From Actinophytocola xinjiangensis (lineage in GTDB: Bacteria; Actinomycetota; Actinomycetes; Mycobacteriales; Pseudonocardiaceae), in contig NZ_MSIF01000014.1 of the NCBI RefSeq assembly GCF_001921215.1, forward strand, positions 62,001-126,000: 64,000 bases of DNA. Direction: 5' to 3'. A program made the position numbers and the translations under genes. Shown here one piece after another: positions 11,125-33,929 of the stretch. The notes beneath the pieces are model-generated. The model did not search any database and was not told where the DNA came from. It was given only the letters and a program-made list of their open reading frames with translations. The first letter of the stretch is position 1. Each line of letters begins with the position of its first letter.

Positions 11125-11993
11125 CCAGCACCCCCGAACCTCTGATCGACCGCGTCCGCAGCCGCCTGGCCAGCGCCGCGACCGAGATCACCCCCGCCGC
11201 CTTGGCGGACGCCGTCCGGGCGGAGTCCGGTGGCGTGGTGGGTGACGCCGACATGCTCACCGCGCTTCGCCTGATGCGGCAGGAGTTCGTCGGCGCGGGC
11301 CCGCTGGATCCGTTGCTGCGCACGAGCGGCGTCACCGACGTCCTGGTCACCGCCCCCGACCAGGTCTGGCTCGACGGCCAGGGCGGCCTGCGTCGCACCG
11401 ACGTCACGTTCCCCGACGAGCAGGCGGTCCGCCGGCTGGCGCAGCGCCTGGCGCTGGCCTGCGGCCGCCGGCTCGACGACGCCCAGCCGTTCGTCGACGC
11501 CTGGCTACCGGGCCATGTCCGTCTGCACGCGGTCCTCCCACCGATCGCCGCCGACGGCACGTGTCTGTCGCTGCGGGTGCTGCGCCGCGCGGGCCATTCC
11601 CTGGAGTCGCTGCGCCGGCTGGGCACGTTCGACGCCGTCGGCCACAGCCTGCTTCTCGCGATCGTCGACGCGCGCCTCGCGTTCGTCGTCACCGGCGGCA
11701 CCGGCGCCGGCAAGACGACGTTGTTGTCGGCGCTGCTCACCAGCGTGCATCCGCTGGAGCGGATCGTCTCGGTCGAGGACGCCGGCGAGCTGGCTCCTGA
11801 CCATCCCCAGTTCGTCCGCCTCATCGCCCGCCCGCCGAACGTCGAGGGCGCCGGCGAGGTCACCCTGTCCGACCTGGTGAGACAGGGTCTGCGGATGCGC
11901 CCGGACCGCCTGGTCGTCGGCGAGACCCGCGGCGCCGAGGCGCCACGTCTGACGGGTCACCAACGGTACCGAACGTGCCGTTCCGGCTGCTGA
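11121..11993 (+). pseudogene. tadA: tadA (CpaF-like Tad ATPase), 5' part, interrupted by prophage
   Basis: These are the first 273 codons of the type II/IV secretion ATPase that powers Tad pilus assembly. GGTGAGKTT (Walker A, residues 192-200), VSVEDAGEL (Asp box) and RLVVGETRGAE (Walker B, ends at 273) are intact. Immediately after GAE the sequence enters phage DNA at the CCGAGG core (11935-11940) and stops after 17 foreign residues, giving a 290-aa truncated product. The missing C-terminal part is at 33893-34233. Joining 11121-11940 to 33893-34233 gives one 1,161-bp frame of 386 aa reading GAEVCDLLNALNTGHDG across the junction. ATG 11121 overlaps the preceding stop. Confidence 0.93.
11919..11961 (+). 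other. attL junction (host tadA / phage left end)
   Basis: The core CCGAGG lies at 11935-11940. Host tadA sequence is to its left. To its right is the phage arm ending in GGGTCACC (11954-11961), which is the inverted partner of GGTTACCC at 33866-33873 in attR. The equal 21-bp distance of both arm repeats from the core supports this as half of attP. Confidence 0.8.
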
Positions 11994-12070
11994 CCGTGGC
12001 GTGACCAAACTGTGACCAAGTGGCTGTCTGATTTGTCTGTTGCGCCCATATTCGGGTTTGTAACGTCGAC

Positions 12071-12089
12071 GGGCTCTAGAAAGGAGCCC
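12071..12089 (+). promoter_or_regulatory. Hairpin occluding the ribosome-binding site of the first phage gene
   Basis: GGGCTC (12071-12076) pairs with GAGCCC (12084-12089) around a 7-nt loop. The Shine-Dalgarno AAAGGAG occupies the loop edge and the 3' arm, just upstream of ATG 12092. The fold would reduce ribosome access. Confidence 0.45.
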
Positions 12090-12091
12090 CA

Positions 12092-12666: not shown

Positions 12667-12759
12667 ATGCCTGACGAAATCGAGTTCGAGTCCGCCGAGA
12701 TGTCGGCCGCCGAGTACGCGGAGTTGCTGCGCGTGCTGTTCGGTGGTGAGCCCCGGTGA
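12667..12759 (+). CDS. 30-aa small protein upstream of XRE regulator
   Basis: A 30-codon acidic frame (starts MPDEIEFESAEMSAAEYAEL) begins at ATG 12667 after GGAG (12658-12661). Its stop overlaps the GTG of the following regulator (GTGA). The coupling and ribosome-binding site support a real small gene, perhaps a leader peptide or a partner of the regulator. No homology is recognisable. Confidence 0.55.
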   Translation: MPDEIEFESAEMSAAEYAELLRVLFGGEPR

Positions 12760-13121
12760 CCCCCGAGCAGGCCCGGTCGATGGTCTTCGACCGCCACCGG
12801 CTCAAGGCGTTGCGTCACGCGGCCGGGCTGTCTGCCGCCGTGTTCGCGCGGACCTGTGGCGTCGCCAAGGTCCAGGCTTACAGCTGGGAAAACGGCCGAA
12901 CCAAGCCCACCATTGATCGGTTGCCCGTGATCGTTGCCGCGCTCGGGCTGGGCCGCATCGACGAGCTTTTCGGACCAATCGACCAAGCCGAGGCTCATGC
13001 GCAAACCCGGTGCACGGCGATGACTGTGGTAAGTCGGCTCTCCGAGCAGTGCCGCCAAGACGCCCTGATCGGCTCCCTCTTCTGTTCGCTGCACCAGGGG
13101 TGCGGCAATGGCGCCGAATAA
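12756..13121 (+). CDS. XRE-family helix-turn-helix regulator
   Basis: This 121-aa protein has an XRE/Cro-type DNA-binding domain at about residues 12-65 (LKALRHAAGLSAAVFARTCG, VQAYSWENGRTKPTIDRLPV). The C-terminal 50 residues contain three cysteines and a histidine (C-x17-C, CSLHQGC), which might bind metal. It starts with GTG overlapping the stop of the 30-aa gene and is followed by a strong hairpin. As the element's leftmost DNA-binding protein it is a candidate lysogeny or replication-control regulator. Confidence 0.8.
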   Translation: MTPEQARSMVFDRHRLKALRHAAGLSAAVFARTCGVAKVQAYSWENGRTKPTIDRLPVIVAALGLGRIDELFGPIDQAEAHAQTRCTAMTVVSRLSEQCRQDALIGSLFCSLHQGCGNGAE

Positions 13122-13125
13122 GGCA

Positions 13126-13216: not shown

Positions 13217-13248
13217 CGAGTCTCCTTGTCGACACGTGGGGAGACTCG
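13217..13248 (+). promoter_or_regulatory. Hairpin sequestering the rep ribosome-binding site
   Basis: CGAGTCTCC (13217-13225) pairs with GGAGACTCG (13240-13248) over 9 bp with a 14-nt loop. The 3' arm includes the GGGGAGA Shine-Dalgarno of the replication gene, whose ATG is at 13250. The geometry is that of a translational off-switch. Confidence 0.55.
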
Positions 13249-13249
13249 A

Positions 13250-15118
13250 ATGCCTAAGGTTCAGTCTGACCTGTTCGAGCAGATCTCTGCGTACGTCAAC
13301 GCCAAGGGTTCCGGGAATCAGCGCAACGGGCAGTGCCCGGCGCACGACGACAACACCCCCAGCCTTTCGCTGACCCTAAAGGGCGACGGGAGTGTTCTGT
13401 TCAAGTGCCAGTCGGGATGTACCCAAGAAGAGGTGCTGTCGGCCCTGAGAGAGGCTGGGTTGGAGGTCCCGCGCCCCGGGGGCCGGCGAGAGTCCGAGAG
13501 GTCAACGACGGCCGCGCGAGACACCGAGCTGGGCAGGATCACCGAGGTCTACGCCTACACCAACGAACACGGCGAGGTCTTGTTCACCAAGGCCCGGTAC
13601 GAGCCCAAGACCTTCCGGTGTGGAGTAGGTGACACCCCCAAGAAGTTCAAAGTCGCAAGCATCCCGAAACACGTGACCCCGGTCCCGTACCGACTGCCGC
13701 AACTGCTGGCGGCGATCAAGGACGGTCGACGAGTCTGGGTGGTCGGCGGCGAGAAGGACGTTCACGCTCTGGAGGCCGTGGGCGAGGCCGCCACCTGCAA
13801 CCACGACGGAGAGCAGAACTGGAACCTGCACGACTTCACCCGGTGGTTCGAGGGCGCGACCGATGTCCGAGTTGTCAAGGACAACGACAAGGGCGGGGAA
13901 CAGTACGCCTACGACGTCCAGGCGAGCTTGACCGAGGTCGTGGGCCATGCCGGCGGCGCGGTCACGGTGTGGCGCGCGAACCTGCCGCAGAAGGGCGCCG
14001 ACGTCGCGGACCACTTGCAGACCGGGTACACCCTGGACCAGCTGGTCTCGGTGCCCACGGTGGCCGATCTCGCGTTTGACGACGAGGTACGGCGGGAGGT
14101 CCACAAAGACCGGGTCCGCCGCGAGGCTAAGCGTCGAACAGCCCTCGCGGCGCTATCCCCGTCGGCCCGGCCGGTCTCGTTGGACGATCTCGAACAACTC
14201 CCTACCGCTGACTACCTGATCAAGGTCATGGTCCCGAAGAACACCATCGGCGAGGTGTTCGGGGCGTCGGGGTCGTACAAGTCGTTCGTGATGCTGGACG
14301 CGGCCTTGCACGTGGCGACTGGCCGACCCCGTTGGCATGGTCACCGCGTCCGCCAGGGGCGGGTGTTGTACGTGGCCTCGGAAGGTGGACTCGGCATCCA
14401 CAAGCGGATCCGAGCGTGGTCCCAACACCACGACCTGACCATCCCGAACAAAAACCTGATGGTCTTGCCGTATCCGTTCCAGATCGTCGCGGTCGACGCC
14501 CTGTTGGACAGACTCACCGAAGCCGAGTTCGAACCGGACTGGGTCATCTTTGATACCCGGGCCACATCAACAGTCGGCATGGATGAGAACAGCCCGACCG
14601 AGATGGGTTTGGTCACCGACGCCATGCGTCGGCTCGCGGTAGAACTGGGCGCGGCCGTGACCACGGTGCACCACACCGGGTGGTCCGAATCCGATCGCTC
14701 GCGCGGTGCCTCCTCGGTGCCCGCCGCGATGGACACAGTGTGGCGGATCGAGGGCGAGAAGAACGGCCGCAAACACGCCAGAATCCGGTGCACCAAAGTC
14801 AAGGAGGACCAGGCACCGCCGGAGTTCAAGGTTGAGCTTCGGTCGGTCACGCTGCCCGAGACCGACGAGGACGGCGACTCGGTCACGTCGTTGGTGGTCG
14901 TGGATGGCGAGGTACTGACCCGGGACGAAAAGTCCGGAGTCTCGGCCCTGGAGGAATTGGGACCAGACGCGGTCGCGTTGGTAGCTCGACTAGACGCTGC
15001 CGGGATTGACCCTCGGGCAGGTCTACCCACCATCCACGCGTGGATGAAGGGCAACGGCGTGAAAATGAGCAAAACCTTTCTGGGGCAGGTCGTGGCAGTT
15101 AGAAAGGCCCGTTCATGA
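13250..15118 (+). CDS. Phage replication protein: zinc/TOPRIM primase with RepA-like helicase domain
   Basis: This 622-aa protein combines an N-terminal zinc-finger-like segment (CPAH near 29-32 and CQSGC near 52-56, resembling CHC2 primase zinc sites), a TOPRIM-like region (WVVGGEKDVHALE about 161-173; KDND about 205), and a RepA/KaiC-type ATPase with Walker A GASGSYKS near 338-345 and Walker B-like DWVIFDTRA. Such primase-helicase fusions start replication of small phages and plasmids. ATG 13250 has a GGGGAGA ribosome-binding site inside a hairpin; an upstream TTG at 13226 is in the hairpin loop and was rejected. The iteron-like array at 15162-15338 directly follows and could be its origin. 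Confidence 0.85.
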   Translation: MPKVQSDLFEQISAYVNAKGSGNQRNGQCPAHDDNTPSLSLTLKGDGSVLFKCQSGCTQEEVLSALREAGLEVPRPGGRRESERSTTAARDTELGRITEVYAYTNEHGEVLFTKARYEPKTFRCGVGDTPKKFKVASIPKHVTPVPYRLPQLLAAIKDGRRVWVVGGEKDVHALEAVGEAATCNHDGEQNWNLHDFTRWFEGATDVRVVKDNDKGGEQYAYDVQASLTEVVGHAGGAVTVWRANLPQKGADVADHLQTGYTLDQLVSVPTVADLAFDDEVRREVHKDRVRREAKRRTALAALSPSARPVSLDDLEQLPTADYLIKVMVPKNTIGEVFGASGSYKSFVMLDAALHVATGRPRWHGHRVRQGRVLYVASEGGLGIHKRIRAWSQHHDLTIPNKNLMVLPYPFQIVAVDALLDRLTEAEFEPDWVIFDTRATSTVGMDENSPTEMGLVTDAMRRLAVELGAAVTTVHHTGWSESDRSRGASSVPAAMDTVWRIEGEKNGRKHARIRCTKVKEDQAPPEFKVELRSVTLPETDEDGDSVTSLVVVDGEVLTRDEKSGVSALEELGPDAVALVARLDAAGIDPRAGLPTIHAWMKGNGVKMSKTFLGQVVAVRKARS

Positions 15119-16386: not shown

Positions 16387-16525
16387 TGGTCTTTTTCCTG
16401 CTGAGTAATTATTCGGACACCCACCGTTCCCTGTTCTTTCTCTCTCCAAAATGAGCCAGGGATTCCGGCCGCTAATTATCAGGTGGTTAACTCCGTGGAC
16501 GAGGAGTCGTGACGGGAGGTGCGCT

Positions 16526-16990
16526 TTGTACGGGACCTGGTCTTATTCGGAGCTTCAAGCCGAGTGCAAGAAGCGCGGCCTGTCCGCTCTCGGCAAGAAG
16601 GCTGAACTCGTCGACAGGTTGTCCGCTGGTCAGGCGGCCGACTCGGCCGCGCTGTCCATGCTCGGTGCGGTCTCGCTGGCGCTCGCTGGCCTCACGGATA
16701 ACTCGCGCGACGCCGGGGCGGTCAAGCTGGCCCAGCGGTACGCGGCGGTTATCGACGAGGCTGAGGTAGCACAGGACGCGCTGAACGAGTTGGGGCCAAA
16801 GCTGCTGGCGGTGCTGGAGTCGCTGGGTGCTACCCCCAAGGGCCGCGCCGCGTTGACGATCAAGGGGGGAGGTGCGGCTCGTGGTGGTGCTGTCAAATCC
16901 GAAATGGACGAACTCCGAGAGCGGAGACGTCGTGCTCGGGAGCACGGAGCCCAGGCTGTGGACACCACCTCTTCGCCCTCTCACGCCTGA
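16526..16990 (+). CDS. Terminase small subunit with N-terminal SAP-like motif
   Basis: The position directly upstream of TerL and the composition (basic C-terminus, helical middle) indicate the small terminase subunit that recognises phage DNA. The N-terminus carries a SAP-like DNA-binding helix pair (YSELQAECKKRGLSALGKKA about 6-25). I choose TTG 16526 because GGGAGG precedes it by six bases; an ATG at 16451 would add 25 residues without a ribosome-binding site. The product is 154 aa. The last 119 bases overlap the TerL start. A closely similar SAP motif recurs in the gene at 22155. Confidence 0.7.
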   Translation: MYGTWSYSELQAECKKRGLSALGKKAELVDRLSAGQAADSAALSMLGAVSLALAGLTDNSRDAGAVKLAQRYAAVIDEAEVAQDALNELGPKLLAVLESLGATPKGRAALTIKGGGAARGGAVKSEMDELRERRRRAREHGAQAVDTTSSPSHA

Positions 16991-18563
16991 AACCAGCTAC
17001 GGGTTCGAGGTGTGCGAGTTCGCGCGCCAGATCGGCGAGCCGTTCGACCCGTTCCAAGAGTGGTTGGCCATCCACGTTGGCGAGTTGCTGCCGGACGGTC
17101 GGCCGCGATTTCGGGTCGTCTTGGTGCTCGTGGCCAGGCAGAACGGAAAGACTCACTTCCTCAAGGTCCTGATCCTGTGGTGGCTGTTCGTCGACCTGCC
17201 GGGGACCCGCATGGACAAGCCGACTGTCCTCGGTACCTCCTCGAAACTGGAGTACGCCAAGGAGACCTGGCACGCCGCAGTCGACACCGCGAAACGGGTG
17301 CCGATGCTGGCCGAGGAGATCGCGCCGCGCGGTATCCAGCTGCGCAACGGTGAGGAGAGCTTCACCACCGTGCACAACACCCGGTACAAGATCGCGGCCA
17401 GCAACGACGACGCCGGCCGGAGCCTCACCGTGGACCGGCTGGGCCTGGACGAGTTGCGCAAGCATCAGGACTGGACCGCGTGGAACGCGGCCGAGCCGAC
17501 CACCAACTCGGTCGACAACGCCCAGATCGTCTGTCTGTCGAACCAGGGGGACCGCAAGGCGGTGGTCCTGCGGTCCCTTCGCAAGTCAGCGCTAGAGTTC
17601 ATCGACTCGGGAGAAGGTGACCCGAGGCTTGGTCTGTTTGAGTGGTCGTCGCCGGACGGGGCAGACCCTGAGGACCCGGTAGCGCTGGCCGCCGCGAACC
17701 CGAACTTCAACCGGCGGTGGCAAGGGGACTCGCTGTTGGGCGCGGCCAAGCGCGCCAAGGCTGCAGGTGGGGACCAGCTGACCGGGTTCAAGATCGAATA
17801 CATGTGCATGGAGGTCCCGGTCCTCAACCCGGCCGTTGACCCCGTGGGCTGGAAGGCCGGTCTTGACCCGGGCGACATGGCGAACCTGCGCGACCAGTTG
17901 GCCGCGTGTGTGGACGTGTCGCTTGACGGGCAGCACGCCTGCCTCGTGGTGGCTGCGGTGCTGCCCGAGCAGGACGACGAGGCCGAGGTGCCCAGCGAAG
18001 CCAGCGAGTCCAACGACGACCCAGCCGGGGGGCAGGACGAGGGCACCGAGCAGGCCCCAGCTGTCCGGGTTCGGGTCGAGGCAGTGAAGGCGTGGAGCGG
18101 ACCGAACTGCACCAGGGAGATGAGGCGCGACCTGCCGGGGCTGCTGCGCAGGATCCGGCCGCGTGTGTTCGGTTGGTTCCCTTCGGGTCCCGCCGCAGCG
18201 GTGGCGGCCGACTTGGCGGACCCCAAACACAAGCGGGTTAACCGTCAGTCCTCGTGGCCACCGGCCGGGGTGAGGGTCGAGGCGATCCGCCAGGAAGTGC
18301 CTGCGGTCTGCATGGGGTTCGCCGACCTGGTCAAGTCCGGGGGTGTCGTGCATTCGGGAGACCCCATGATCGATAAACACGTTCTGGGGGCCGAGAAGCT
18401 CCTTCGCGGGTCCACTTTCGTGTTCACGCACAAGGGGCCTGGGCACATCAACGGTGCCTACGCTGCGGCCGGGGCTGTGCACTTGGCGCGCACTCTGCCG
18501 CCGATGCCGCCTCGTCCGAAGGTGATTAGTTCCAAGCGAAACCGAGATAGGCGAACAGACTAG
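16872..18563 (+). CDS. Terminase large subunit
   Basis: This 563-aa packaging motor has an ATPase with Walker A VARQNGKT (about 87-94), adenine-binding FDPFQEW upstream, and Walker B LGLDELRK near 195. The C-terminal nuclease starts at ACVDVSLDG. An acidic, low-complexity insert of about 40 residues (EQDDEAEVPSEASESNDD...) interrupts the nuclease domain, which is unusual. The start is GTG 16872 or the in-frame GTG 16881, both close behind the GGGGGGAGG tract, inside the TerS gene. The family is the HK97-like TerL of siphophages. Confidence 0.92.
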   Translation: MRLVVVLSNPKWTNSESGDVVLGSTEPRLWTPPLRPLTPETSYGFEVCEFARQIGEPFDPFQEWLAIHVGELLPDGRPRFRVVLVLVARQNGKTHFLKVLILWWLFVDLPGTRMDKPTVLGTSSKLEYAKETWHAAVDTAKRVPMLAEEIAPRGIQLRNGEESFTTVHNTRYKIAASNDDAGRSLTVDRLGLDELRKHQDWTAWNAAEPTTNSVDNAQIVCLSNQGDRKAVVLRSLRKSALEFIDSGEGDPRLGLFEWSSPDGADPEDPVALAAANPNFNRRWQGDSLLGAAKRAKAAGGDQLTGFKIEYMCMEVPVLNPAVDPVGWKAGLDPGDMANLRDQLAACVDVSLDGQHACLVVAAVLPEQDDEAEVPSEASESNDDPAGGQDEGTEQAPAVRVRVEAVKAWSGPNCTREMRRDLPGLLRRIRPRVFGWFPSGPAAAVAADLADPKHKRVNRQSSWPPAGVRVEAIRQEVPAVCMGFADLVKSGGVVHSGDPMIDKHVLGAEKLLRGSTFVFTHKGPGHINGAYAAAGAVHLARTLPPMPPRPKVISSKRNRDRRTD

Positions 18564-18986: not shown

Positions 18987-21900
18987 ATGGGATGGTGGCG
19001 GACTCTTACCAACTGGCGCGCTGCGCCCGGTGTTGACGAATCCGTAGCCATGCCCCGGGAAACCGGCAGTCAGGGCACCCCGAAATGGCAGCGCCCGGTC
19101 ACGTCGTCGTTGATGTTCACGGCGAACCTGCCTTCGGAGATGACCGGCATACTCGGCGAGGTCGCGGCCGTGCCGCGCGTCGGTCGGGCGCAGGCGATGT
19201 CGGTCCCGGCCGTCAAGCGCGGTCGGGACCTGATCTGCGGCACTCTCGGCACGCTGCGGTTGAAGCGGCTCGACAGCCGGCGACGAAGGGTGCCGAGCGA
19301 ACTTCTGGAGCAGCCCGAGGCCGACGTCGCCCGCTCGGTGACCATGACCCGGGTCGTCGAGGACATGCTGTTCGAGAGCCGCGCCTGGCTTCGGATCACC
19401 GAGTTCGACGCCAACGGGTACCCGTCCAAGGTTGTGAGGCTCGACCCTCGCACCGTTACGGTTCGCGAGAACGCCCGGGTGTACGTCTCCAGCGACGGCG
19501 TCACCCAGGGCCAGGCGACCGAGTTCGTGCCGGACGCTCAGTTGATCCGAATCGACTCCCCGAACGACGCGCTGCTAGTGGCCGGTGCACGGGTGATTCG
19601 AGCTGCCCTCGCCCTGGAACAAGCCGCCGCGCGACACATCAACACCGGGATGCCGCTGGGCTACCTGACCAGCGCTGACGGCACTGACCCAGGCGACGAT
19701 GCCGAAGTTGAAGAGATTCTCGACAACTTCGAGGATTCCATCTCGCGGCGCGCGTGGCCCTACCTCGGGGCACTCAAGGCCAACCAGCTCACGTGGAACC
19801 CGGAGCAGCTCCAACTGGCCGCTGCCCGGGACTACGCGGTACTGGAGATCTCCCGGTTGATCGGCATCGACCCCGAGGAACTTGGGGTGTCCACCACCAG
19901 CCGTACCTACGCGAACGCCGAACAGCGTCGGTTGGATCTGATCGACTTCACCCTTGCTGCGTACGTGTCCGCGATCGAGGACCGGCTGTCGATGCCGGAC
20001 GTCACGCCGCCGGGTTACACCGTGCGCGCCGAGTATGGCGGATTCCTCCGCAGCGACACCGAAACCCGGATGCGCACCTACGAGACCGGCCGCCGCGTAG
20101 GCGTCTACGACGACGAGCGGATTGCCGAACTGGAAGACCTGCCCGTTGAGCGCGTCCGCGCGGCGGCCAAGCCCAGCGCACCGACCCCGCCAGCGCCGGC
20201 CAGCACGCCGACGCCGCCCCAGGAGGAGACCGTGCAGCAGTCCACCCGACCCGTGTTGGCGTTCACCGCGCCCGTCGACGACGGCCCAATCAAATTCGAC
20301 GTTACCGGGGAGGCCATTGACTTCCGGGTGAACGCCGAACGGCGCACCATCTCGGGCCTGGCGGTTCCGTGGGACACCGTGGCTCGTAGTGCCGGCGCCC
20401 GCTGGTCGTTCCCGCCCGGGAGCCTGCACTGGACCGACGAGGCCAGGGTGAAGCTCGACCGGGACCACGTGCCCGGTACCGAGGTCGGCAAGGCCGTACG
20501 CATCCAGGCGACCCGCGCCGGTCTCGACGTCACGCTGAAGGTGGCGCGCGGCCCGGCCGGTGACGAGCTGCTGGCGCTCGCCGAGGACGGCGTCTACGAC
20601 GGCCTGTCGATCCAAGCCGACTTCACCAGCTCCGGCGACGGGTGGGACTCCCACCCCGACGACCGATCGCTGCGCCTGGTCCGCTCCGCCACCTTGCGGA
20701 AGATCGCGCTCACCGCGACTCCCGCGTTCGACGACGCCCGGGTTACCTCGGTCGCCGCATCCCGACAGTCCCCCCAGGAAGGACCGATCGTCATGACCAC
20801 TCCGGCCGCTGTGCAGCCGAACACCGCGCCTGGCACCCCGGCCGGGCGGACCCCCACCGCGCCCCAGGGCTTCGACATGGCCACGTTCACCGCCGGCCTG
20901 ACCGAGGCCGTGAAGGCGTCGGTGACGGCCGCGATGCAGAACGTCCAGCTGCCGCAGGTCGACACAACCACGGTGCCGCCACGCCAGACCGTGCCGGCCG
21001 GTCGGGTCGAGGTGACCCGCGAGGCCCCCGTGTACACGATGAACGGCAACGGCCCGTCGTTCGTCCGCGACGCCTGGAAGGCCCGCACCGAGAGCGACCA
21101 CGACGCGCGCCAGCGGCTGGCCAAGTACACCCGGCAGACCGAGGAGTTCGCCAAGCAGGCCAACGACGCGCTCATGTTCGGCGCCGACACCGGCAACGCC
21201 TCCGCCGTGATCCCGCCCGGCTACCGGCCCGAGCTGTACGTGACCCAGCTGATGCGGGGTCGTCCGCTGGTCGAGGCTGTGTCCCGTGGCCAGCTCACCG
21301 ACGCCACCCCGTTCACTATCCCCAAGTTCGTCTCGTCGAGCGGTATGACCTCCGATCACGTCGAGGGCACCAACCCGACCGATGGCACGATGGACATCAG
21401 CACCGTGACCGTGACGCCCGGTGGTATCTCCGGCCTGTTCGAGCTGACCCGCGAGATCGTCGACAGCGCCAACCCGGCCATCGACGCCATCGCGATGCAG
21501 GCTATGCAGGAGTCCTACTCCCAGCAGACCGAGGCCAAGGTGTACGCCGAGCTGAACGGCTCGAACGGCCAGGGCGGCACGATCACTAGCGGGTTCGTGC
21601 CCTCCGGTGCCCAGGCACGGCTGGTTAGCGGCGGCGACGGCAACGGCGGCAGTGGGACGGCGGACGGGGCGGACCTCATCGCTGGTATCCGCAGCCAGCT
21701 CGCGTTGTACCCGTTCCGGCGGTTCGGGGCGCCGAACCGCGCGATGCTGTCGCAGCAGGGTACGACCGGGCTCGCGACGGCGGTCGGCTCGGACGGTCGT
21801 CCGCTGCTGCCGAGCATCGGTGCGCAGAACACAGCCGGTGTCGGGAACGCGGTCACGCAGGGCTGGTTCGTCGACGGCCTGCCGCACCAGCCGGCCTGGT

Positions 21901-22838: not shown

Positions 22839-23456
22839 GTGGCATGGGCTCCGGACTACTGCACGGCTGACGACCTGGCCGAGTACCTCCGCATCGACGA
22901 TGACCTTGACGATGCGGAACTGGAGCGTGCCGTTACTGCCTCCTCGCGTGCGATCGACCGGCACACCAACCGTCAGTTCGGGTTGGTAGCCACGCCGGAA
23001 GCGCGCTACTACACCGCGCGTTGGTCGAGGAGCCGCCGAACCTGGCTGGTCCCGATCGACGACCTGATGACCGAGACTGGGTTCGAGGTCGCCACCGAGC
23101 AGCACGCCGCAGGTGAGTTCGTCGCGGTCGTGGGGCCGGTGTTGCGTCCTCGGAACGCCGGCCCCGAGGGGCGGCCGTGGACCGAGCTGGCAATCCCCGA
23201 CGCGTTCGCGGTTGGTGCCCGGTTCGGCCAGCCGGACGGCGTGCGGGTCACCGCTCGGTTCGGCTGGACCACCGTGCCGGTGGCGGTCGAACAAGCTTCC
23301 CTGCTGCAAGCGTCCCGACTGGTCGCCAGGCGGTCCGCCCCGTTCGGTGTCGCCGGTTCCCCCGAAGTCGGGTCGGAGATGCGGTTGCTGGCCAAGGTGG
23401 ACCCCGACGTCGCGGTCACCCTCGACGGCTACCGCAGAAGGGTGTGGGCGAGGTGA
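22839..23456 (+). CDS. Head-tail connector protein (gp6-like)
   Basis: This 205-aa protein has an N-terminus (YCTADDLAEYLRIDDDLDDA, followed by ASRAIDRHTNRQF) characteristic of the phage gp6/HK97 connector family that forms the adaptor ring below the portal. The C-terminal half is extended and beta-rich. The GTG 22839 start follows GGAGCTGG. Its stop overlaps the next start (GTGA). Confidence 0.78.
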   Translation: MAWAPDYCTADDLAEYLRIDDDLDDAELERAVTASSRAIDRHTNRQFGLVATPEARYYTARWSRSRRTWLVPIDDLMTETGFEVATEQHAAGEFVAVVGPVLRPRNAGPEGRPWTELAIPDAFAVGARFGQPDGVRVTARFGWTTVPVAVEQASLLQASRLVARRSAPFGVAGSPEVGSEMRLLAKVDPDVAVTLDGYRRRVWAR

Positions 23457-23866
23457 ACGTTCAGGAGGTGATGGAGGAGGTGGCCGGCAAGCTCGACTCG
23501 ATTGTCGGCCTACGCGCATACGCTTTCCCGCCGGACAAGATCACGCCGCCGGCCGCGTTCGTAAGCTTGCCCGAGGCGATCACCTACGACGGGGGGTACG
23601 GCCGAGGGTCGGACACGATTGACTTGGGAGTGCTCGTCCTGGTGTCCCGGTCGGTCGATCGGGTCGCGGCCGAGAAGATCGCCGCGTACGCCGATGGGTC
23701 AGGCGCCTCCTCGGTCAAAGCCGCGTTGGACTCCAGCGGGGCGAATCCCTACACCACGTGCGACACCGTTCGTGTTGCGTCCGCCGAGTTCGGCGCCTGG
23801 CAGGTGGCCAGCGTGACCTACCAAGGCGTCGAGTTCACCATCAACATCACCGGTTCAGGGAGCTGA
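23453..23866 (+). CDS. Tail terminator/completion-like protein
   Basis: This 137-aa protein starts at GTG 23453, overlapping the connector stop. The layout VQEVMEEVAGKLDSI ... AYAFPPDKITPPAAFVSLPE ... VLVLVSRSVDR matches minor tail/terminator proteins that close the tail tube at the head interface in siphophages. It directly precedes the tail tube gene. Confidence 0.65.
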   Translation: MNVQEVMEEVAGKLDSIVGLRAYAFPPDKITPPAAFVSLPEAITYDGGYGRGSDTIDLGVLVLVSRSVDRVAAEKIAAYADGSGASSVKAALDSSGANPYTTCDTVRVASAEFGAWQVASVTYQGVEFTINITGSGS

Positions 23867-23867: not shown

Positions 23868-24275
23868 ATGGGCACCGTGCACGCGAAGGACACATACGTC
23901 AGCCTCGGCGGCGACGACATCAGCGCGTACACCAACTCGACCACGTACAACCGCGAGGCCGACACCCACGAGGACACCTCCTACGGCTCCGACGACAAGA
24001 CGTACGTCGGCGGCCTGCGGGACGGCACTGTCACCATCGGCGGCCGGTACGACAACACCGCGCTGACCGGACCTCGGGCGGTCATCATGCCGCTGCTGGG
24101 TACCACCGTGGAGTGCGTCATTCGCCCGGAGGGCACCGGGGCCAGCCGGCCCGAGGACACCATGGATGTTGTAGTCAACGCCTACAACGAGACGTTCCCG
24201 GTCGCGGACATCGTTACCTGGACCGCCGAACTCCAGATCACCGGCGGCATCACCTACGGCACCCAGTCCTCGTAA
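23868..24275 (+). CDS. Major tail tube protein
   Basis: This 135-aa protein starts one base after the preceding stop. It is rich in Thr, Asp and Gly with beta-hairpin character (VSLGGDDISAYTNSTTYNRE, DGTVTIGGRYDNTALTGPR) and ends in a strand-rich segment typical of small tail tube proteins. Genome order (connector, terminator, tube, chaperones, tape measure) supports the assignment. Confidence 0.75.
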   Translation: MGTVHAKDTYVSLGGDDISAYTNSTTYNREADTHEDTSYGSDDKTYVGGLRDGTVTIGGRYDNTALTGPRAVIMPLLGTTVECVIRPEGTGASRPEDTMDVVVNAYNETFPVADIVTWTAELQITGGITYGTQSS

Positions 24276-25432: not shown

Positions 25433-26479
25433 ATGGCGTCTAAGCCCACCGTTACCCTGACTCTTGCGGGCGACGAGAAGAAGCTCACCGAGGCGTTCGA
25501 CCGGGTCGGCGCGGCGTCAAAGTCGATGGCCGACGATGTAGACCGGTCGAGCAAGGAGATGGCCGACTCGGGCAGCAACGCACAGGAGCGGCTGACCGAG
25601 GGGTTCGACACCACCGACACCCGCGCGATGGGCTTCCGGGACACGATCACCGGTCTGCAGGACGGGTTCCAGGGCCTCACCGACGACAGTCTCGGGCTGG
25701 GCGAACGGCTGTTGCTGCTGGGTACCGGCGTCGGTGACCTGGCCTCGGGCATGGTCAATCTCCTGATTCCGGCCATGGCGACGTTCTGGGGGTGGCTCAG
25801 TTCGACTACGGCCGCGACCTGGCTTGTCGCCACGGCCAAGACCGCGTGGGCCGCCGTGACCGGAGCCGTGTCTACGGCGATAGCTGTACTCAACGCGGTG
25901 ATTCGGGCAAACCCGATCATGTTCTTGGTGGGGCTGATCTCCGTGTTGGTCGGAGCGTTCATGCTGCTGTGGAACAGGTCCGCCGCCTTCCGGGACTTCT
26001 TCATCGGGATATGGAACGCAATCCGGGGTGCGGTTGGCTCGGTGGTGGGCTGGATCAAGAGTGTCTGGGCTGGCCTCCCGGGGTTCTTCCGGGGGGTTGT
26101 GAACGGGATCGTGAGCATCTTCTCCGGCATCGGGAACGGGATCAAGAACGCTTTCAAGGGCGCCGTAAACTTTGTCATCGGGATCCTGAACACGGCGATC
26201 AACGCCATCAACGGCTTGATCAACGGCGCCAACCTGATCCCCGGCATCAACATTCCGAACATCCCTCAGATTCCCCGGCTGCACACGGGTGGCGTGGTCC
26301 CCGGCATGATCGGGTCCGAACAGTTGGCCATCCTGCAAGCCGGTGAGCGGGTCGTCCCTCGGGGCCAGGGCGGGGGTGGCGGAGCGGCCACGGTCGCGTT
26401 CTCCGGCGACGTAGACAGCGCGTTCGCTACCGCGTTCATGAAGTTGGTTCGATCCGGTGATATCACGGTGGCGGCATGA
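25433..26479 (+). CDS. Tape measure protein, unusually short
   Basis: This 348-aa protein has an N-terminal helical region, several hydrophobic stretches (about residues 100-200) and aromatic/glycine repeats (WIKSVWAGLPGFFRGVVNGI, FSGIGNGIKNAF), as in tape measure proteins. It ends with the frequent LHTGGVVPG and AGERVVPRG motifs. Siphophage tape measures are usually 700-2000 aa and scale with tail length at about 0.15 nm per residue, so this one predicts a tail of only about 50 nm. Its stop overlaps the next start. Confidence 0.85.
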   Translation: MASKPTVTLTLAGDEKKLTEAFDRVGAASKSMADDVDRSSKEMADSGSNAQERLTEGFDTTDTRAMGFRDTITGLQDGFQGLTDDSLGLGERLLLLGTGVGDLASGMVNLLIPAMATFWGWLSSTTAATWLVATAKTAWAAVTGAVSTAIAVLNAVIRANPIMFLVGLISVLVGAFMLLWNRSAAFRDFFIGIWNAIRGAVGSVVGWIKSVWAGLPGFFRGVVNGIVSIFSGIGNGIKNAFKGAVNFVIGILNTAINAINGLINGANLIPGINIPNIPQIPRLHTGGVVPGMIGSEQLAILQAGERVVPRGQGGGGGAATVAFSGDVDSAFATAFMKLVRSGDITVAA

Positions 26480-29355
26480 TTACCCCGGTCGTTGACGCCT
26501 ACCTTGGCGGGGACTGGCGCACCCTCGACGCCTCGACCGGCGGCACGGTGCGGCAAAGCCCCCCGATCAAGATCACGGCCGGCGCCAAGGACGAGGCGGC
26601 CAAGACCTCACCGAGCAAGGCCACGTTCACCCTGAACGACCCGGACGGCGACTACGACCCGGGCAACCCGATGAGTCAGTGGTTCGGGGACCTGAAGGAG
26701 AACACCCGAGTGCGGGTGACCGTGCCGCTCACCGAGCCGGTGTCGTTCACGCACACGATCGCGGATGGCCCGGGGGCGGACGCCGACCAGGTCCCCGGCG
26801 AGTTCTGGAACAGCGAGACCCGGTACCACGTCGAGTTGCCGGTGTCCGACGTGACCGGCGGCATTGCCGGCACGGTGCTGCAGCTCCGCTACCTGGACGC
26901 GAACAACTTCTTGTGGGTGCAGGTCGTCTACCACACCACCGACAGCGTCCAGGTGGGTGTGATCGAGCGCGTGGCGGGCTCGGACCGCCGGCTGTTGGCC
27001 GACACCCGGGTCTACCCGGACGGGACCCTGTTCACGGTCAATGCGTTCTCGGTGGTGGTGCTCGTCGAGGGCCAGGTTGTGCGCGCCAAGGTGTGGGCGG
27101 ACGGGGACCCCGAACCGCTCGACTGGCAGGTCGAGTGCACCCGCGCGACCGTGCGAGCCGGGGCAACGTTCCTCGCCTCCACCCTCGACGCCGGCAACAC
27201 GAACACCATGCCGTGGGTCATGGAGTACACCGACGTCCGGGTCGGCATCCCGGTGTTCTACGGGGAGGTCGCCGAGTTCAACCCGGCCGTGGCTGACGAG
27301 TCTCACGCCGCGCCCACGGTGGCCATCACCGCGAGCGGCATCGGCCGCCGGGTGGCGCAGGGGTCGGACCCGCTCAAGTCGTCCGCGTTCCGGTCCTGGA
27401 CCTCTCCGCAGGGCTGGATCCGCGAGGGCTCCATGACGTCCACCTCGGGCGTCGGGTCGACGAACACCATGCAAGGCGCGGTGGGTGACTCCGACGACGT
27501 CCCGGTCGGGAGCTTCTTCCGGCTGCTCGACGAGACCGGCCGGTACAAGGAGGACCAGCTGTTCACGGTGACCGCCAACAGCGGCGGCCAGATCACCTTC
27601 ACCCCGGACACGCTGGAGCCCATCGTCCTGCGGGACGTGGCGGCGTCGTACCGGCTGGCCACCGAGGACGACCTACCCATTGCGTACTGGCCGATGGAGG
27701 ACGACCGGGGCTCAACCAGTCCCGCTTCCGGCCTGCTCGGCGGGGCGCCGATGGAGACTCGGGTGGACACCCCCGAGTTCGCCGCCTTCGACGTGTTCGC
27801 GGGCTCCGCCCCCCTGGTCAAGCTGAACAACGCCGAGCTGTACGGCACGGTCCCCGACTACACCGACACCAACCAAGCGTTCACGCTCGCGTTCCTGGCC
27901 CGCTTCCCCGACGCTGACGAGGCAGGCACCGGCCAGGCGATCGTCCAGTTCTACTGCACCGGCACGGCGGAGGTGTGGGCGCTGAACTACGCCACCGGTG
28001 GCGGGGACGGCGACCTCGTGCTGTCGGCCTACTCGGCGACCACGGGCGCCCAGCTGTTCAGCACCCCCTACGACATGGGGATGCGCGGCAACCCCCGCCT
28101 GGTCACGCTCAACCTGGAGCAGACCGGCCCGACCACGGTCCAGTACTCGCTACTGACGGTGGGCTACACGTCGGCCGGCGGCACCTCGGTTGCTGGCCCA
28201 GCCACCGCGACGGCCACCGGGGTCACCGCCCTCGGGAAGATCACCAGCGCGCAGGTGAACCCCGGCGGCGGCTACGTGGACGTCGGCTTCGGGCACCTCG
28301 CGGTAGTCCCCGCCGTGCTGTCGTACATCAACATCACGGACCGGATCTCCGGCTACGCCCAGGAGAACCCCCCGCGTCGCTTCGCCCGCCTGGCCTACGA
28401 GGAGGGCGAACCGGTCACCTACTGCCAGGGCATCGTTCCCGCCGGGATCCTGGGTCCCCAGCGCCGGGACACGCTGCTGGACACCTGGCAGGACGTCACC
28501 GACTTCGACATGGGCCGCTTCTACGAGGCCAAGGGGGCCTACCGGTTCGAGTACCGCACCCGGTCCAGCCTCTACAACCAGGGGCACATCCTGGACCTGG
28601 ACTACGAGGGCGGGGCGGTCCTCGCCCCGTTCGACCCGGTCCGGGACGACCAAGGCTCCCGCAACGACATCACAGTGAAGCGCGAGGGTGGGTCGACCTA
28701 CCGGGCGGTGAAGGAGTCCGGGGCCAAGAGCGTTGAGGCCATCGGCCGGTACACCGACGCGCCCACGGTGAACGCCGCGTTCGACCGGCACCTACCCGAC
28801 CTGGCGCACTGGCGCCTGCACCTGGGCACGGTCGACGGGGACCGCTACCCCACGATCACGGTCAAGGCAGCGGACGGCGTGCTGTCCCTGGAACGCCTGC
28901 TGTCCGTGGGGGTGGGCGACCGGGTGCGCGTCACCAACGCCGGGGCGCGCCGCCGGTTCGAACCCATTGACCAACTGGTTCCCGGCTACACCCTCACCCT
29001 GCACCCCTACGTGCCCACCCTGGCCATGAACTGCGTGCCGGCGTCGCCGTACAACGTGGCGGTGCTCGACGAGGACACGGTGCGCCTGGACTCCGACACC
29101 AGCGCCCTGGACGACGACATCACCTCGTCGGCCGCCACGTTCGACGTGGCCACCACCGATTGTCTGTGGACCACCGACCCGGACCACTTCCCATTCGACG
29201 TGCTCGTCGGTGGGGAGCGCTGCACCGTCACGGCCATCAGTGGCGCCTCGTCACCGCAGGCGTTCACCGTCACCCGAGCCGTTAACGGCGTCGCCCGCGC
29301 CTGGTCGGCCGGCACGAAAGTGTCCCTGGCCGATCCCCACTACCTGCCGCTCTAG
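26476..29355 (+). CDS. Large distal tail protein
   Basis: This 959-aa protein lies directly after the tape measure (ATGA overlap). The N-terminus (FTLNDPDGDYDPGNPMSQWF) resembles distal-tail/baseplate hub modules of actinophages. A central portion with DLPIAYWPMEDDRGS and ATRVD-type strands looks like a LamG/concanavalin-type carbohydrate-binding domain. The C-terminal part (VAVLDEDTVRLDSDTSALDD, VTRAVNGVARAWSAG) is beta-rich. It probably combines tail-tip and receptor-binding functions that larger phages split over several genes. Confidence 0.75.
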   Translation: MITPVVDAYLGGDWRTLDASTGGTVRQSPPIKITAGAKDEAAKTSPSKATFTLNDPDGDYDPGNPMSQWFGDLKENTRVRVTVPLTEPVSFTHTIADGPGADADQVPGEFWNSETRYHVELPVSDVTGGIAGTVLQLRYLDANNFLWVQVVYHTTDSVQVGVIERVAGSDRRLLADTRVYPDGTLFTVNAFSVVVLVEGQVVRAKVWADGDPEPLDWQVECTRATVRAGATFLASTLDAGNTNTMPWVMEYTDVRVGIPVFYGEVAEFNPAVADESHAAPTVAITASGIGRRVAQGSDPLKSSAFRSWTSPQGWIREGSMTSTSGVGSTNTMQGAVGDSDDVPVGSFFRLLDETGRYKEDQLFTVTANSGGQITFTPDTLEPIVLRDVAASYRLATEDDLPIAYWPMEDDRGSTSPASGLLGGAPMETRVDTPEFAAFDVFAGSAPLVKLNNAELYGTVPDYTDTNQAFTLAFLARFPDADEAGTGQAIVQFYCTGTAEVWALNYATGGGDGDLVLSAYSATTGAQLFSTPYDMGMRGNPRLVTLNLEQTGPTTVQYSLLTVGYTSAGGTSVAGPATATATGVTALGKITSAQVNPGGGYVDVGFGHLAVVPAVLSYINITDRISGYAQENPPRRFARLAYEEGEPVTYCQGIVPAGILGPQRRDTLLDTWQDVTDFDMGRFYEAKGAYRFEYRTRSSLYNQGHILDLDYEGGAVLAPFDPVRDDQGSRNDITVKREGGSTYRAVKESGAKSVEAIGRYTDAPTVNAAFDRHLPDLAHWRLHLGTVDGDRYPTITVKAADGVLSLERLLSVGVGDRVRVTNAGARRRFEPIDQLVPGYTLTLHPYVPTLAMNCVPASPYNVAVLDEDTVRLDSDTSALDDDITSSAATFDVATTDCLWTTDPDHFPFDVLVGGERCTVTAISGASSPQAFTVTRAVNGVARAWSAGTKVSLADPHYLPL

Positions 29356-29364
29356 GAGGACTCC

Positions 29365-30331: not shown

Positions 30332-31087
30332 GTGGTCGACCGGACAAGCGGCCTGCCCGCCTACCGGCAAGTGGCCGACGACTTGCGCGCTCGCATCGCC
30401 TCCGGAGAGCTGGCGCCCGGTGACCGGCTGCCCTCCGAACGGCAGATGGTCGACACGTACGGCGTCAGTCGTCCGACCGTCCGTGACGCCGTGAACTTGC
30501 TGCGCACCGAGGGCTTGGTGATCGCCGAACACGGGCGCGGCGTGTTCGTCCGGCGAGCAACGAGTGTCATGCGTCTGGCTCGTCTGTCCCGGTCCGCCCG
30601 GGAGGCGGGCCGGGGCGCGTTCCTCGGTGACGCTGCCGCCGCTGGCTTCACTCCGAGCGTCGAGGTGCAAGTCACCTTCGAGCCGGCCGACGCCCGAATG
30701 GCCGAACTGCTGGGCGTGGCGGTCGGCACCGAGCTGTGCGTTCGGGATCGCGTGATGGACGCTGACGGCGTCACGGTGCAGCTGGCCGTCTCGCGGTTCC
30801 CGAGGTCGGTCACCAAGGGAACCGCGATGGAGCAGCCGGACAGCGGTCCCGGCGGGACCCACTCGCGACTGGAGGAAGGCGGCCACCAGCTCGACCGGTT
30901 CACCGAGGCTGTAGGCGCTCGAATGCCGACGCCGCACGAGTCGTCCGTGTTGCAGCTCTCGCCTGGCGTGCCGGTCCTCACCGTGACCCGCGTGGCCTTC
31001 ACTGTCGACGGCCGCGCGGTCGAGGTGAACGACATCGTGATGTCCGCTGACCGGTTCTCGTTGGCCTACGAGATCCCTGCCACGTAG
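30332..31087 (+). CDS. GntR-family (HutC subfamily) regulator
   Basis: This 251-aa regulator has an N-terminal winged helix typical of GntR (AYRQVADDLRARIASGELAP, LPSERQMVDTYGVSRPTVRD, about 9-75) and a UTRA-like C-terminal domain (LCVRDRVMDADG, VLTVTRVAFTVDG). GTG 30332 follows GGGAGG. GntR proteins of this type control replication and transfer of Streptomyces integrative plasmids (KorSA/KorA), and here the protein probably controls the element's lysogenic state through the upstream palindrome. The UTRA domain suggests response to a small ligand. Confidence 0.85.
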   Translation: MVDRTSGLPAYRQVADDLRARIASGELAPGDRLPSERQMVDTYGVSRPTVRDAVNLLRTEGLVIAEHGRGVFVRRATSVMRLARLSRSAREAGRGAFLGDAAAAGFTPSVEVQVTFEPADARMAELLGVAVGTELCVRDRVMDADGVTVQLAVSRFPRSVTKGTAMEQPDSGPGGTHSRLEEGGHQLDRFTEAVGARMPTPHESSVLQLSPGVPVLTVTRVAFTVDGRAVEVNDIVMSADRFSLAYEIPAT

Positions 31088-31565: not shown

Positions 31566-31749
31566 TGCGCCTCCCGGCGTCGGCTTAAGCCAATAACCCC
31601 TGCTAGACAGCGGGATCCGCCCCGGAGAAAAGCACACAAGATATGTGGCTGACAATTACTTGTGGGCGATTTATTCGGGTGGTTGAATTTAATTCTTCGC
31701 GGGATTTACCACGAAGGTAAGGAAACGGGCGAATTAAGGAGAACGGGAA
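31566..31749. promoter_or_regulatory. AT-richer divergent promoter region
   Basis: These 184 bases separate the minus-strand membrane pair from the integrase operon and are distinctly AT-rich for this genome (for example GATTTATTCGGGTGGTTGAA and TTTAATTC). They probably contain back-to-back promoters. AAGGAG at 31737-31742 is the ribosome-binding site for ATG 31750. Confidence 0.45.
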
Positions 31750-32247
31750 ATGACCACCACCACCGCCGTGACCGAGGCCGCCACTCCTCGGGTGTGCGCC
31801 TGCAACTGCGGCGCCGCCGTGGCCAAGAAGTCCCGGTTCCGCATGGGCCACGACCAGCGGCTGGTGTCGGACCTGGCGGGGCAGCTCGTGTACGGCGAGG
31901 ACATGCCCGAGGGGTTGGTGGACCTGCTCGGGTTGGGTGACTGGGACCCCAAGGCCGACATTGAGGACCGGATCAACATCGTGGTGCACCGGGTCGCCCA
32001 GGAGTTCAGCGCCGGCCTGGCCAACAAGGTCGACAGCGCCGCGCGGAGGCGCTGGGAGAAGGCCGGCAAGGGCAAGCCGGCCAAGGTCGCTGAGCCCGTT
32101 AGGGACACCCCGGCCGAGGTGGCCAGCGGCGACAAGGTGGCCGCCCTGGGTGAGTGCGGCGGGACGACCAAGGCCGGCAAGAAGTGCAAGCGGCGGGCCG
32201 AGATCGGCACCGAGTTCTGCCACGCCCACCGGAAGGCCGCGAAGTGA
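31750..32247 (+). CDS. Zinc-motif protein upstream of integrase; possible recombination accessory factor
   Basis: This 165-aa protein has AAGGAG before ATG 31750. The N-terminus has CACNCG and RFRMGHDQRL, a motif recurring in actinophage proteins. The C-terminus has a second Cys/His cluster (ECGGTTKAGKKCKRRAEIG ... FCHAHR), resembling small zinc-ribbon tails. A Lys-rich linker joins them. Its stop overlaps the integrase start (GTGA), so the two are made together. That makes a role in integration or excision, for example as directionality factor, worth testing; the sequence alone does not prove it. Confidence 0.6.
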   Translation: MTTTTAVTEAATPRVCACNCGAAVAKKSRFRMGHDQRLVSDLAGQLVYGEDMPEGLVDLLGLGDWDPKADIEDRINIVVHRVAQEFSAGLANKVDSAARRRWEKAGKGKPAKVAEPVRDTPAEVASGDKVAALGECGGTTKAGKKCKRRAEIGTEFCHAHRKAAK

Positions 32248-33929
32248 CCGACCCCCAGGGGCTGCCGGCCGGGGTCTACGCCCGGGTCTCGACCAAGAGG
32301 CAAGCCGGCGAAAAACAGACCAGCATCCCGGACCAGGTGAGCAAGGGTCGCGCCGTGTGCGCGGCCCTCGGCCTGCCCGTTCACGACGTCTACATCGACC
32401 CCGGTGTTTCGGGGGAGGAGCTGGAGCAGCGTCCCGAGATGCGGCGGCTGCTGGCCGACGTCGCGGCGGGGCGCGTCCGGGTCGCGGTCGCCATCGACTT
32501 GAACCGGATCGCCCGGGACGAGTTCGTGTTTCAGCAGATCTTCCGCACGCTCGACCGCGAAGAAGCGTTCGTTCACGCGGACGGGCAGCTGTACGACCCC
32601 GAGAACCTGTCGCAGCTGCTGACCCGTGGGATCAAGGCCGTGGTGGCCTCGCACGACCGCCGCGCGCTGATCAAGCAGCTTGCGAACGGGCAGCGGGCTC
32701 GCGCGTCGGCCGGCGGCTGGCCCGGCGGCGCCCCGCCCTACGGCTACCGGCTGGTCTGGCCGACCACCGCGCCCGGGGTCAAGCCGAAGGCGCAGGTTGA
32801 GATCGACGACGCCGAAGTTGAGATGTTGCTCACAGCCATCACGCTGCTGGTCGACGAGCGGACCGAGGACGGCGAACGGCTGACTACGGGATTGGTGGCC
32901 GACCGGCTGAACGCGATGGGGTACACGACCCGTGGCGGCGCGGTCCGGCCCGAGAACCGGACACCGGGACCTTGGTCGCACTCGAACCTGCGTCGGGTGT
33001 TGTCCAGCCGGTCTCTGCTGGGCGAGGTCTACTGGGGCAAGCCTGACTCGCGTCCGTCCGGCAAGCACCGAACCCGGGTACGACGGGACGGGACGCCGTA
33101 CTACGGCGAAACGATCAAAATGCAGCTGGAGCCACTCATCACGCCCGAGCGGTTCGACGAAATCCAGCTGGCCCTCAGCCTGCGCGCGTACGGCTACAAG
33201 GCCGAGAGCAAGCCCTACCCGCTGTCGGGGGCCACCAGCGCTTGCGGTGGGTCACTCGGCGGTGTGTACCGCAAGGACCGCGACCTGCGGCAGTACCGGT
33301 GCAACCGGCGCAAGTCGAACGCGACACAGAAGAGACTGTGCGACTGCCCCCGGATCAACGCGGACTGGCTGGACGGGCGAGTTTGGGACGAGGTCTCCGG
33401 GCTGCTGACCGACCCGGCCCGGCTGGTCGCCATGGCGGCTGACTACCTGGGGGTCGAGGGCGACCGCGCCCGCAGGGGTGCCGACCGCCTGCCGGCGATC
33501 GAGCGCAAGATTGCCCAGCTCCAACGGGCCAGGGTCAGCCGCGCGGCGGACGCGCTCAAGTCGGGCATCTCCCCGGACCTGCTCCGAGCCGCCGTAGGGC
33601 AGATCGAGGAGGAACTTGCCGGGCTGGAGGAGGAGCGGGACCGGCTGCAGGCTGCGCGGCGTGACCGGCAGTCCGGGCAAGACCGCGCGGTAGCCCTCGC
33701 GCGGCTGGCGGAGCAGGCGGCGACCCGGTTGCCCCAGATCAGGATGGAGGACCGGCGCGACGTACTCCGGTTGCTCGGGGTCAACGTGACGGTGCTGGAG
33801 CAGTCCTCCCAGCCCGCCTTGCGCATCACGGGTCGCCTGCCGGCCAGCCTGCCGGCGCAGAAGGCGGTTACCCCCGCGACATGGGACCGAGGTCTGCGAT
33901 CTCCTCAACGCCCTCAACACCGGTCATGA
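32244..33929 (+). CDS. int: Large serine integrase
   Basis: This 561-aa serine recombinase has an N-terminal resolvase domain with catalytic Ser16 in YARVSTKRQA and the DLNRIARD arginine motif. A recombinase domain follows (GGWPGGAPPYGYRL, VLSSRSLLGEVYWG). A zinc ribbon (about 330-372, ACGGSLGG ... RCNRRK ... CDC) contains a coiled-coil insertion near 410-480. GTG 32244 overlaps the previous stop. The last 11 residues (LRSPQRPQHRS) are encoded by host tadA DNA beyond the CCGAGG core. In the excised circle the frame would instead continue 20 codons into the phage left end and stop at TGA 12002-12004. It recombines attP with attB inside tadA. Confidence 0.95.
   Translation: MTDPQGLPAGVYARVSTKRQAGEKQTSIPDQVSKGRAVCAALGLPVHDVYIDPGVSGEELEQRPEMRRLLADVAAGRVRVAVAIDLNRIARDEFVFQQIFRTLDREEAFVHADGQLYDPENLSQLLTRGIKAVVASHDRRALIKQLANGQRARASAGGWPGGAPPYGYRLVWPTTAPGVKPKAQVEIDDAEVEMLLTAITLLVDERTEDGERLTTGLVADRLNAMGYTTRGGAVRPENRTPGPWSHSNLRRVLSSRSLLGEVYWGKPDSRPSGKHRTRVRRDGTPYYGETIKMQLEPLITPERFDEIQLALSLRAYGYKAESKPYPLSGATSACGGSLGGVYRKDRDLRQYRCNRRKSNATQKRLCDCPRINADWLDGRVWDEVSGLLTDPARLVAMAADYLGVEGDRARRGADRLPAIERKIAQLQRARVSRAADALKSGISPDLLRAAVGQIEEELAGLEEERDRLQAARRDRQSGQDRAVALARLAEQAATRLPQIRMEDRRDVLRLLGVNVTVLEQSSQPALRITGRLPASLPAQKAVTPATWDRGLRSPQRPQHRS
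33866..33915 (+). other. attR junction (phage right end / host tadA)
   Basis: The core CCGAGG lies at 33887-33892. GGTTACCC at 33866-33873 is the left arm repeat of attP, 13 bases before a GACATGG/CCACGTC imperfect inverted pair that spans the core in the rebuilt attP. Host tadA resumes at 33893. The rebuilt attP is 48 bp, with arm repeats 21 bp on either side of the core, the expected size for a serine integrase. Confidence 0.8.

Follow-up and report, generated by a model that had tools for sequence, protein, structure and literature searches.

A Prophage inside the Tad Pilus ATPase Gene of Actinophytocola xinjiangensis and the Recurrent Targeting of tadA by Large Serine Recombinases

Analysis of a 64,000-nucleotide stretch of the actinomycete Actinophytocola xinjiangensis (contig NZ_MSIF01000014.1, positions 62,001 to 126,000 of the forward strand; here, the window) revealed a prophage of 21,952 bp (window positions 11941 to 33892) that splits tadA, the gene for the Tad pilus ATPase, inside codon 274 in this one Actinophytocola genome. 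Its integrase is a large serine recombinase (LSR), and comparison across genomes and viral sequences showed that LSRs of several groups have repeatedly inserted elements into tadA. The overall explanation that we favor, at a probability of roughly three in four, is that an LSR prophage occupies the only tadA found in this draft genome with exact in-frame boundaries, as part of a recurrent targeting of the gene. A temperate phage would thereby have integrated via its LSR into a CCGAGG-cored bacterial attachment site (attB) within the single tadA.

Insertion of the prophage into tadA

Copies of CCGAGG at 11935 to 11940 and 33887 to 33892 flank the prophage. This match alone is weak evidence for the boundaries because other matches of 6 to 9 bases occur between the same 200-base flanks; the boundaries are set by TadA itself. 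Joining 11121 to 11940 with 33893 to 34230 gives a single open TadA frame of 386 codons, the product of which aligns with the TadA protein of Actinophytocola gossypii across residues 1 to 385 with 82% identity. The open frame and this full-length alignment bear out a preliminary description of the same DNA, which had proposed the flanking CCGAGG copies and an uninterrupted 386-aa TadA on joining and had placed the cut just past the Walker B motif. The cut indeed follows residue E273, five residues after the end of a Walker-B-like LVVGE (residues 264 to 268), with RGAE at residues 270 to 273 and Walker A at G192 to T199; the left half of the gene continues into the prophage as ...RGAEAPRLTGHQRYRTCRSGC followed by a stop codon.

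A second tadA was not found in the 9.5-Mb draft genome of the host (72 contigs), where TadA matches at an E value of ≤1e-20 comprise the two halves only. A T2SSE family search of the same genome recovered the 5′ half above the cut-off; below it came the 3′ half, at 23.1 bits, and matches at two further locations, at 20.7 and 19.8 bits. In line with the earlier reading of an inserted element, the gene is uninterrupted in 5/5 of the other genomes of the genus searched, with frames of 397, 665, 586, 496, and 496 aa and no inner stops. Since the only tadA found is split without loss of residues, precise excision would restore it. As long as the prophage is in place, the cut separates the P-loop half from the remainder of the ATPase core; TadA should thus be inactive, and we predict with high confidence that the lysogen lacks a functional Tad pilus.

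The designation of the element as an LSR prophage likewise stands, as it carries genes for terminase, portal/protease/capsid, tail, and primase-helicase proteins in addition to the LSR (Table 1). The integrase possesses Resolvase, Recombinase, and zinc ribbon domains (3/3 above the cut-off) and displays the layout of an LSR prophage, lying at one end of the element and overlapping the right attachment site (attR), with the 6-base core at both ends. Its frame crosses attR, so that its last codons sit in tadA DNA; the C terminus (33887 to 33929) reads ...TWDRGLRSPQRPQHRS in the lysogen and ...TWDRGATSDGSPTVPNVPFRLLTVA in the predicted circular form. Scans of genome contigs and of IMG/VR recovered no relatives of this integrase, and phage records gave nine partial matches of at most 29% identity. 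A search within the family Pseudonocardiaceae returned only an integrase from genome G086 (52% identical), which is preceded by a 46% identical counterpart of the 165-aa protein encoded directly upstream of our integrase. Within the 28 kb of G086 examined, no further prophage protein had a match. Because this counterpart precedes the G086 integrase while nothing else is shared, we consider the open reading frame at 31750 to 32247 a candidate directionality factor. A search of the 84 kb that lie left of the right junction of the G086 element did not reveal its other end; hydrophobic candidate joins for this left end were rejected on inspection by eye. A CCGAGG beside a major facilitator superfamily (MFS) transporter gene in G086 is a one-sided hint.

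Repeated insertion into tadA by LSRs of different groups

The preliminary description regarded tadA as an unusual attB. This view did not survive comparison, as different LSRs repeatedly split tadA at several positions. A first TadA search of 60 genomes uncovered splits in G252, G407, and G413 besides ours. For a census of the family, the C-terminal 108 residues of TadA served as the probe, which matches 371/390 genomes; 327 of the 390 were inspected (150 + 160 + 17, the last 17 being not split), leaving outside the count 19 without a match at an E value of ≤1e-18 and 44 left out, mostly fragmented. Of six no-match genomes searched again, four still gave no match, one has a 5′ part that lies at a contig end, and one has a paralogue only. 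A split tadA with an LSR at the junction is present in 7/327 family genomes inspected: A. xinjiangensis (G000), G260 (38.6 kb), G252 (38 kb), G069 (17 kb), G027 (57 kb), and G208 and G283, where the split extends over contigs. In other families of the order, 2/24 genomes are split (G407, 47 kb; G413, over contigs). A class-wide sample of 147 other genomes (12 of the same order), 13 of which were followed up, mostly for lacking a strong match, provides a lower bound: at least 2/147 have an LSR in tadA (G461, 10 kb; G466, 7.5 kb). All ten of these foreign LSR cases show a recombinase frame at the junction, with Pfam Resolvase and Recombinase domains in 10/10 (Recombinase below the cut-off in G466).

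Other disruptions of tadA were set aside. The 58-kb element in the tadA of G453, from the class sample (L113 and L114), was rejected as an LSR element, being a Tni-type transposon that encodes TniB and TniQ and shows a target duplication of five bases, GCGGC. G087 (C89:61097-62253) and G296 (C1:1919600-1920750) have a frameshift of unknown cause in tadA with no insert, G509 has a frameshift or short gap, G284, G158, and G440 represent contig ends, and G430 retains the 5′ part only, with no recombinase seen.

The breaks are distributed over several sites of the protein. They fall at GSGK/T in G252, G069, G027, and G413; at VEDA in G283, with 12 shared bases, CGTCGAGGACGC; at VVG/E in G407; at RG(A/P)E/V in our genome and G466, the latter with GCGGCCCCGAGGT at both ends; at VCE/L in G260 and G208; and at GHEGG in G461 and the transposon-bearing G453. 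Integrases that share a position are 40.5% (ours and G466), 58% (G260 and G208), or 46 to 58% (G252, G069, and G027) identical, with that of G413 34 to 36% identical to the last three, and those of different positions are 22 to 37% identical (up to 31% for G461). Different integrases have thus converged on the gene. The prophage of G260 encodes a large terminase and a head fusion 52% and, over 1016 residues, 57% identical to ours, together with an integrase that is unrelated to ours, lies at the opposite element end, and uses a tadA site about three codons away.

To set these counts against chance, a search with PF07508 returned 114 matches across 41 genomes, of which the 25 family genomes account for 91 (~3.6 per genome). 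Random gene choice then predicts ~0.17 tadA insertions in the 326 other family genomes at an assumed 7,000 genes each, as against six observed, in a null that is crude since LSRs are nonrandom, some matches are not intact integrases, and independent events are fewer than genomes.

IMG/VR provides further cases. Eighteen rows match the C-terminal half of TadA, some of them short or distant, so that they are best termed TadA-family, with orthology unproven. An LSR lies at the break in 15/18, amounting to 14 distinct sequences (L131 equals L132), and none was detected in the available sequence of L130, L137, and L138. Seven breaks are at Walker A and five distinct ones at NTG(H), with single breaks at TVHA (L125) and close to residue 160 (L127). 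Pfam identified Resolvase in 14/14 of these recombinases; Recombinase scored above the cut-off in 12, fell short of it in L122, and was absent from L123. The N-terminal half of TadA matched five rows, four of which end at or near Walker A with no LSR in the available sequence (the cut in L140 is placed by the end of the alignment at residue 202); the remaining row corresponds to the L125 contig. The G+C content of L133 to L136 is 37 to 39%, which suggests that the tadA-LSR pattern probably extends beyond actinobacteria. In L126, L128, and L129 a short piece of tadA (around 4001 to 4282) has a break on each side, apparently reflecting two elements in one tadA. The helix-turn-helix (HTH) gene on the far side in L128 resembles, by eye, an HTH gene of the G461 element.

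Two further LSR insertions were observed near or in relatives of tadA. In G252, a second LSR (L108, 573 to 2246) lies in an apparent pilin gene, read as such by eye, behind tadC, at ...GMSTAEYA; it has Pfam Resolvase and Recombinase domains and, by eye, resembles the recombinase of Bxb1. In G413, a divergent tadA paralogue (L046) is also cut at Walker A, and the adjoining recombinase is 66% identical to that in the tadA of the same genome.

Possible reasons for the targeting of tadA

Durrant et al. (2022; PMC10083194) likewise report convergence of distantly related LSRs on a single gene and an enrichment of DNA competence genes among LSR targets; the words "pilus," "ATPase," "secretion," and "T2SS" are absent from the main text, and the supplementary lists may include tadA. 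Prophages and other elements interrupt comK (Listeria), comYC (streptococci and Lactococcus), comM, and comFA, which similarly belong to the DNA uptake machinery or its regulation, and these interruptions have been explained as an escape from chromosomal curing (PMC4774983; PMC12637031). A word search of the main texts of these two papers found neither "tad" nor "actinobacteri." Our element differs from those in com genes in targeting a Tad pilus ATPase in an actinobacterium, a host whose competence is hypothetical. Among the matches listed in the open-licence PMC literature, titles and abstract openings do not describe tadA as an attachment site; it may nevertheless have been mentioned before.

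Transformability of Micrococcus luteus was lost on deletion of almost any gene in its two tad clusters, and tad together with ComEA/ComEC is frequent in actinobacteria (PMC4322843). The present host has a ComEC-family gene (C3:182954-183754; 187 bits). On the basis of this precedent, we tentatively propose that tadA is targeted repeatedly because the element benefits from pilus loss, most probably in that Tad pili serve in DNA uptake and uptake can cure prophages. Its broadest form, in which Tad would be the general DNA uptake pilus of actinobacteria and prophages, along with some phages of AT-rich hosts, would disarm it at tadA and so escape curing by transformation, some of them reversibly, is rather doubtful. 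Were the convergence due to selection, a map of prophage attachment sites would become evidence for the role of the Tad pilus in actinobacteria and would predict which lineages are naturally transformable, natural transformation being little studied in this phylum. The tadA cases also provide LSRs of several groups together with their natural attachment sites, all within a single conserved bacterial gene.

Several points weigh against a benefit from pilus loss. The census covers tadA alone, and the IMG/VR cases are partly nonindependent (L121/L122 are 92% and L134/L136 85% identical over the aligned part). The DNA uptake role of the host Tad system is attractive but hypothetical, being carried over by analogy from M. 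luteus. The G086 integrase is located in the MFS transporter gene, so that this group of enzymes is not tied to tadA. No decay is seen in the 3′ part of tadA, where the ratio of nonsynonymous to synonymous substitution rates (dN/dS) is 0.26 to 0.41 against three relatives and 0.21 to 0.39 among those relatives; the insertion may thus be too young for consequences. The break-point DNA is only moderately conserved, ranking between the 47th and 98th percentiles among windows of 40 bases, and a test of whether breaks favor the most conserved tadA DNA bore this out only in part. Finally, since tadA is nearly universal in the family, a preference for widespread nonessential genes would also give recurrence.

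This last point leads to a serious contender, which might well hold even though we stop short of preferring it: LSRs may drift to conserved DNA in widespread nonessential genes, with loss of the pilus as a by-product. The presence of tadA in 371/390 family genomes, the breaks in the coding sequence of a conserved ATPase, and the related G086 integrase in a transporter gene are all consistent with it. However, the break-point DNA is not the most conserved part of tadA, a pilin gene is also struck in G252, the tadA pieces of L126, L128, and L129 are broken on both sides, and two related phages with unrelated integrases are both found in tadA; these are less readily understood as drift alone.

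In active lysogeny, comK in Listeria and hlb in Staphylococcus are restored by prophage excision without killing the cell. Our prophage likewise sits inside a gene that exact excision would restore, as far as its sequence indicates, raising the option, put forward in the preliminary description, of a reversible phage switch with regulated excision. The in-frame restoration, the undecayed 3′ part of tadA (dN/dS as given above), and the candidate directionality factor beside the integrase fit such a switch, but any LSR prophage should restore its target exactly and the lack of decay also fits a recent insertion; we consider this an unlikely account. Superinfection exclusion, in which Tad pili would be a receptor or entry aid of competing phages and the tadA knockout would protect the lysogen, agrees with the diversity of phages in tadA and with the G252 pilin insertion, both of which could be viewed as loss of a surface structure. 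We nevertheless regard it as quite improbable: a Tni-type transposon (G453) is also in tadA, as is the G461 element, five frames of which, scanned with Pfam, yielded only a regulator, and a literature search on Tad pili and phage receptors in actinobacteria listed a single review, on gut commensals. An assembly artefact or dead remnant, to which the draft state of the genome (72 contigs), the short tape measure protein, and the failure to recognize a separate endolysin in the scanned frames might point, has hardly any likelihood given the open frames on both sides, the open phage genes, the IMG/VR relatives (head fusion and terminase of L116, 71 to 78%), and the same architecture in other genomes.

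Gene content of the prophage and state of the tad locus

Table 1. Features of the tad locus and the prophage (window coordinates)
Feature	Position	Strand	Basis
tadZ-like gene upstream of tadA (stop-to-stop frame)	8903..10060	+	weak ParA/CbiA-type Pfam match below cut-off
tadA 5′ part, residues 1-273 plus one base	11121..11940	+	T2SSE, 5.9e-39; Walker A, Walker-B-like LVVGE
Left attachment site (attL) core copy, CCGAGG	11935..11940	.	sequence repeat
Prophage, 21,952 bp	11941..33892	+	flank joining, phage gene matches
HTH regulator, candidate repressor	12756..13121	+	HTH_31/HTH_3; phage repressor PHROGs
Primase-helicase	13226..15118	+	AAA_25; phrog_239, phrog_906
Terminase small subunit with SAP domain	16451..16990	+	domain match
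Terminase large subunit	16872..18563	+	phrog_9, 6.9e-55
Portal-protease-capsid fusion, 1041 aa, single frame	18987..22112	+	Pfam/PHROG-type matches
Head-tail adaptor and tail terminator genes (overlapping frames)	22839..23866	+	phage family matches
Major tail protein	23868..24275	+	phrog_10528
Tape-measure-like protein, only 348 aa	25433..26479	+	PHROG; also matches an endolysin-labelled PHROG
959-aa protein, phrog_5313 (unknown function)	26476..29355	+	1e-148
GntR/UTRA regulator	30332..31087	+	domain match
165-aa protein directly upstream of integrase, candidate directionality factor	31750..32247	+	inferred only
Large serine recombinase, frame running through attR	32154..33929	+	Resolvase, Recombinase, zinc ribbon
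attR core copy, CCGAGG	33887..33892	.	sequence repeat
tadA 3′ part, remainder of codon 274 to stop	33893..34233	+	frame joining, TadA match
tadB, ~67 aa unaligned to relatives	34227..35270	+	T2SSF
tadC	35325..36017	+	T2SSF
DUF4244 pilin-like gene, SVEY motif (stop-to-stop frame)	36010..36216	+	Pfam, relatives
TadE-like gene (stop-to-stop frame)	36189..36572	+	Pfam just under cut-off

In addition to the proteins listed in Table 1, the prophage encodes HNH proteins, and there is a weak holin match at 25034 to 25429. A separate endolysin gene was not recognized among the prophage frames scanned, and completeness of the prophage cannot be claimed for this reason. The fusion of portal, protease, and capsid in one frame recurs in IMG/VR L116 (71% identical), L117 (55%), and L118 (57% over residues 1 to 720, to the contig end) and in G260; the head fusion and terminase of L116 are 71 to 78% identical to ours, and the L116 contig was the sole match when the large terminase was used as the query. 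Small phages of Arthrobacter, Microbacterium, and Gordonia with genomes of 15 to 17 kb (e.g., Arielagos and MasterPitts) have related portal and capsid/protease proteins, but these are only ~30% identical and are annotated as separate genes, whereas ours are in one frame.

The remaining tad locus is open, with the tadZ-like gene, tadB, tadC, the DUF4244 pilin gene, and the TadE-like gene all preserved as frames. The tadZ-like frame shares 44 to 72% identity with a frame lying upstream of tadA in each of seven relatives. The extra ~67 residues of TadB (window positions 34625 to 34939) consist of degenerate repeats with periods of 36, 72, and 108 bases and are absent from the relatives L057 and L063. 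The tadZ-like stop and the start of tadA lie ~1.06 kb apart (10061 to 11120), an interval that carries tandem repeats of 45, 90, and 135 bases; the corresponding gap to the TadA match in seven relatives spans 9 to 581 bases.

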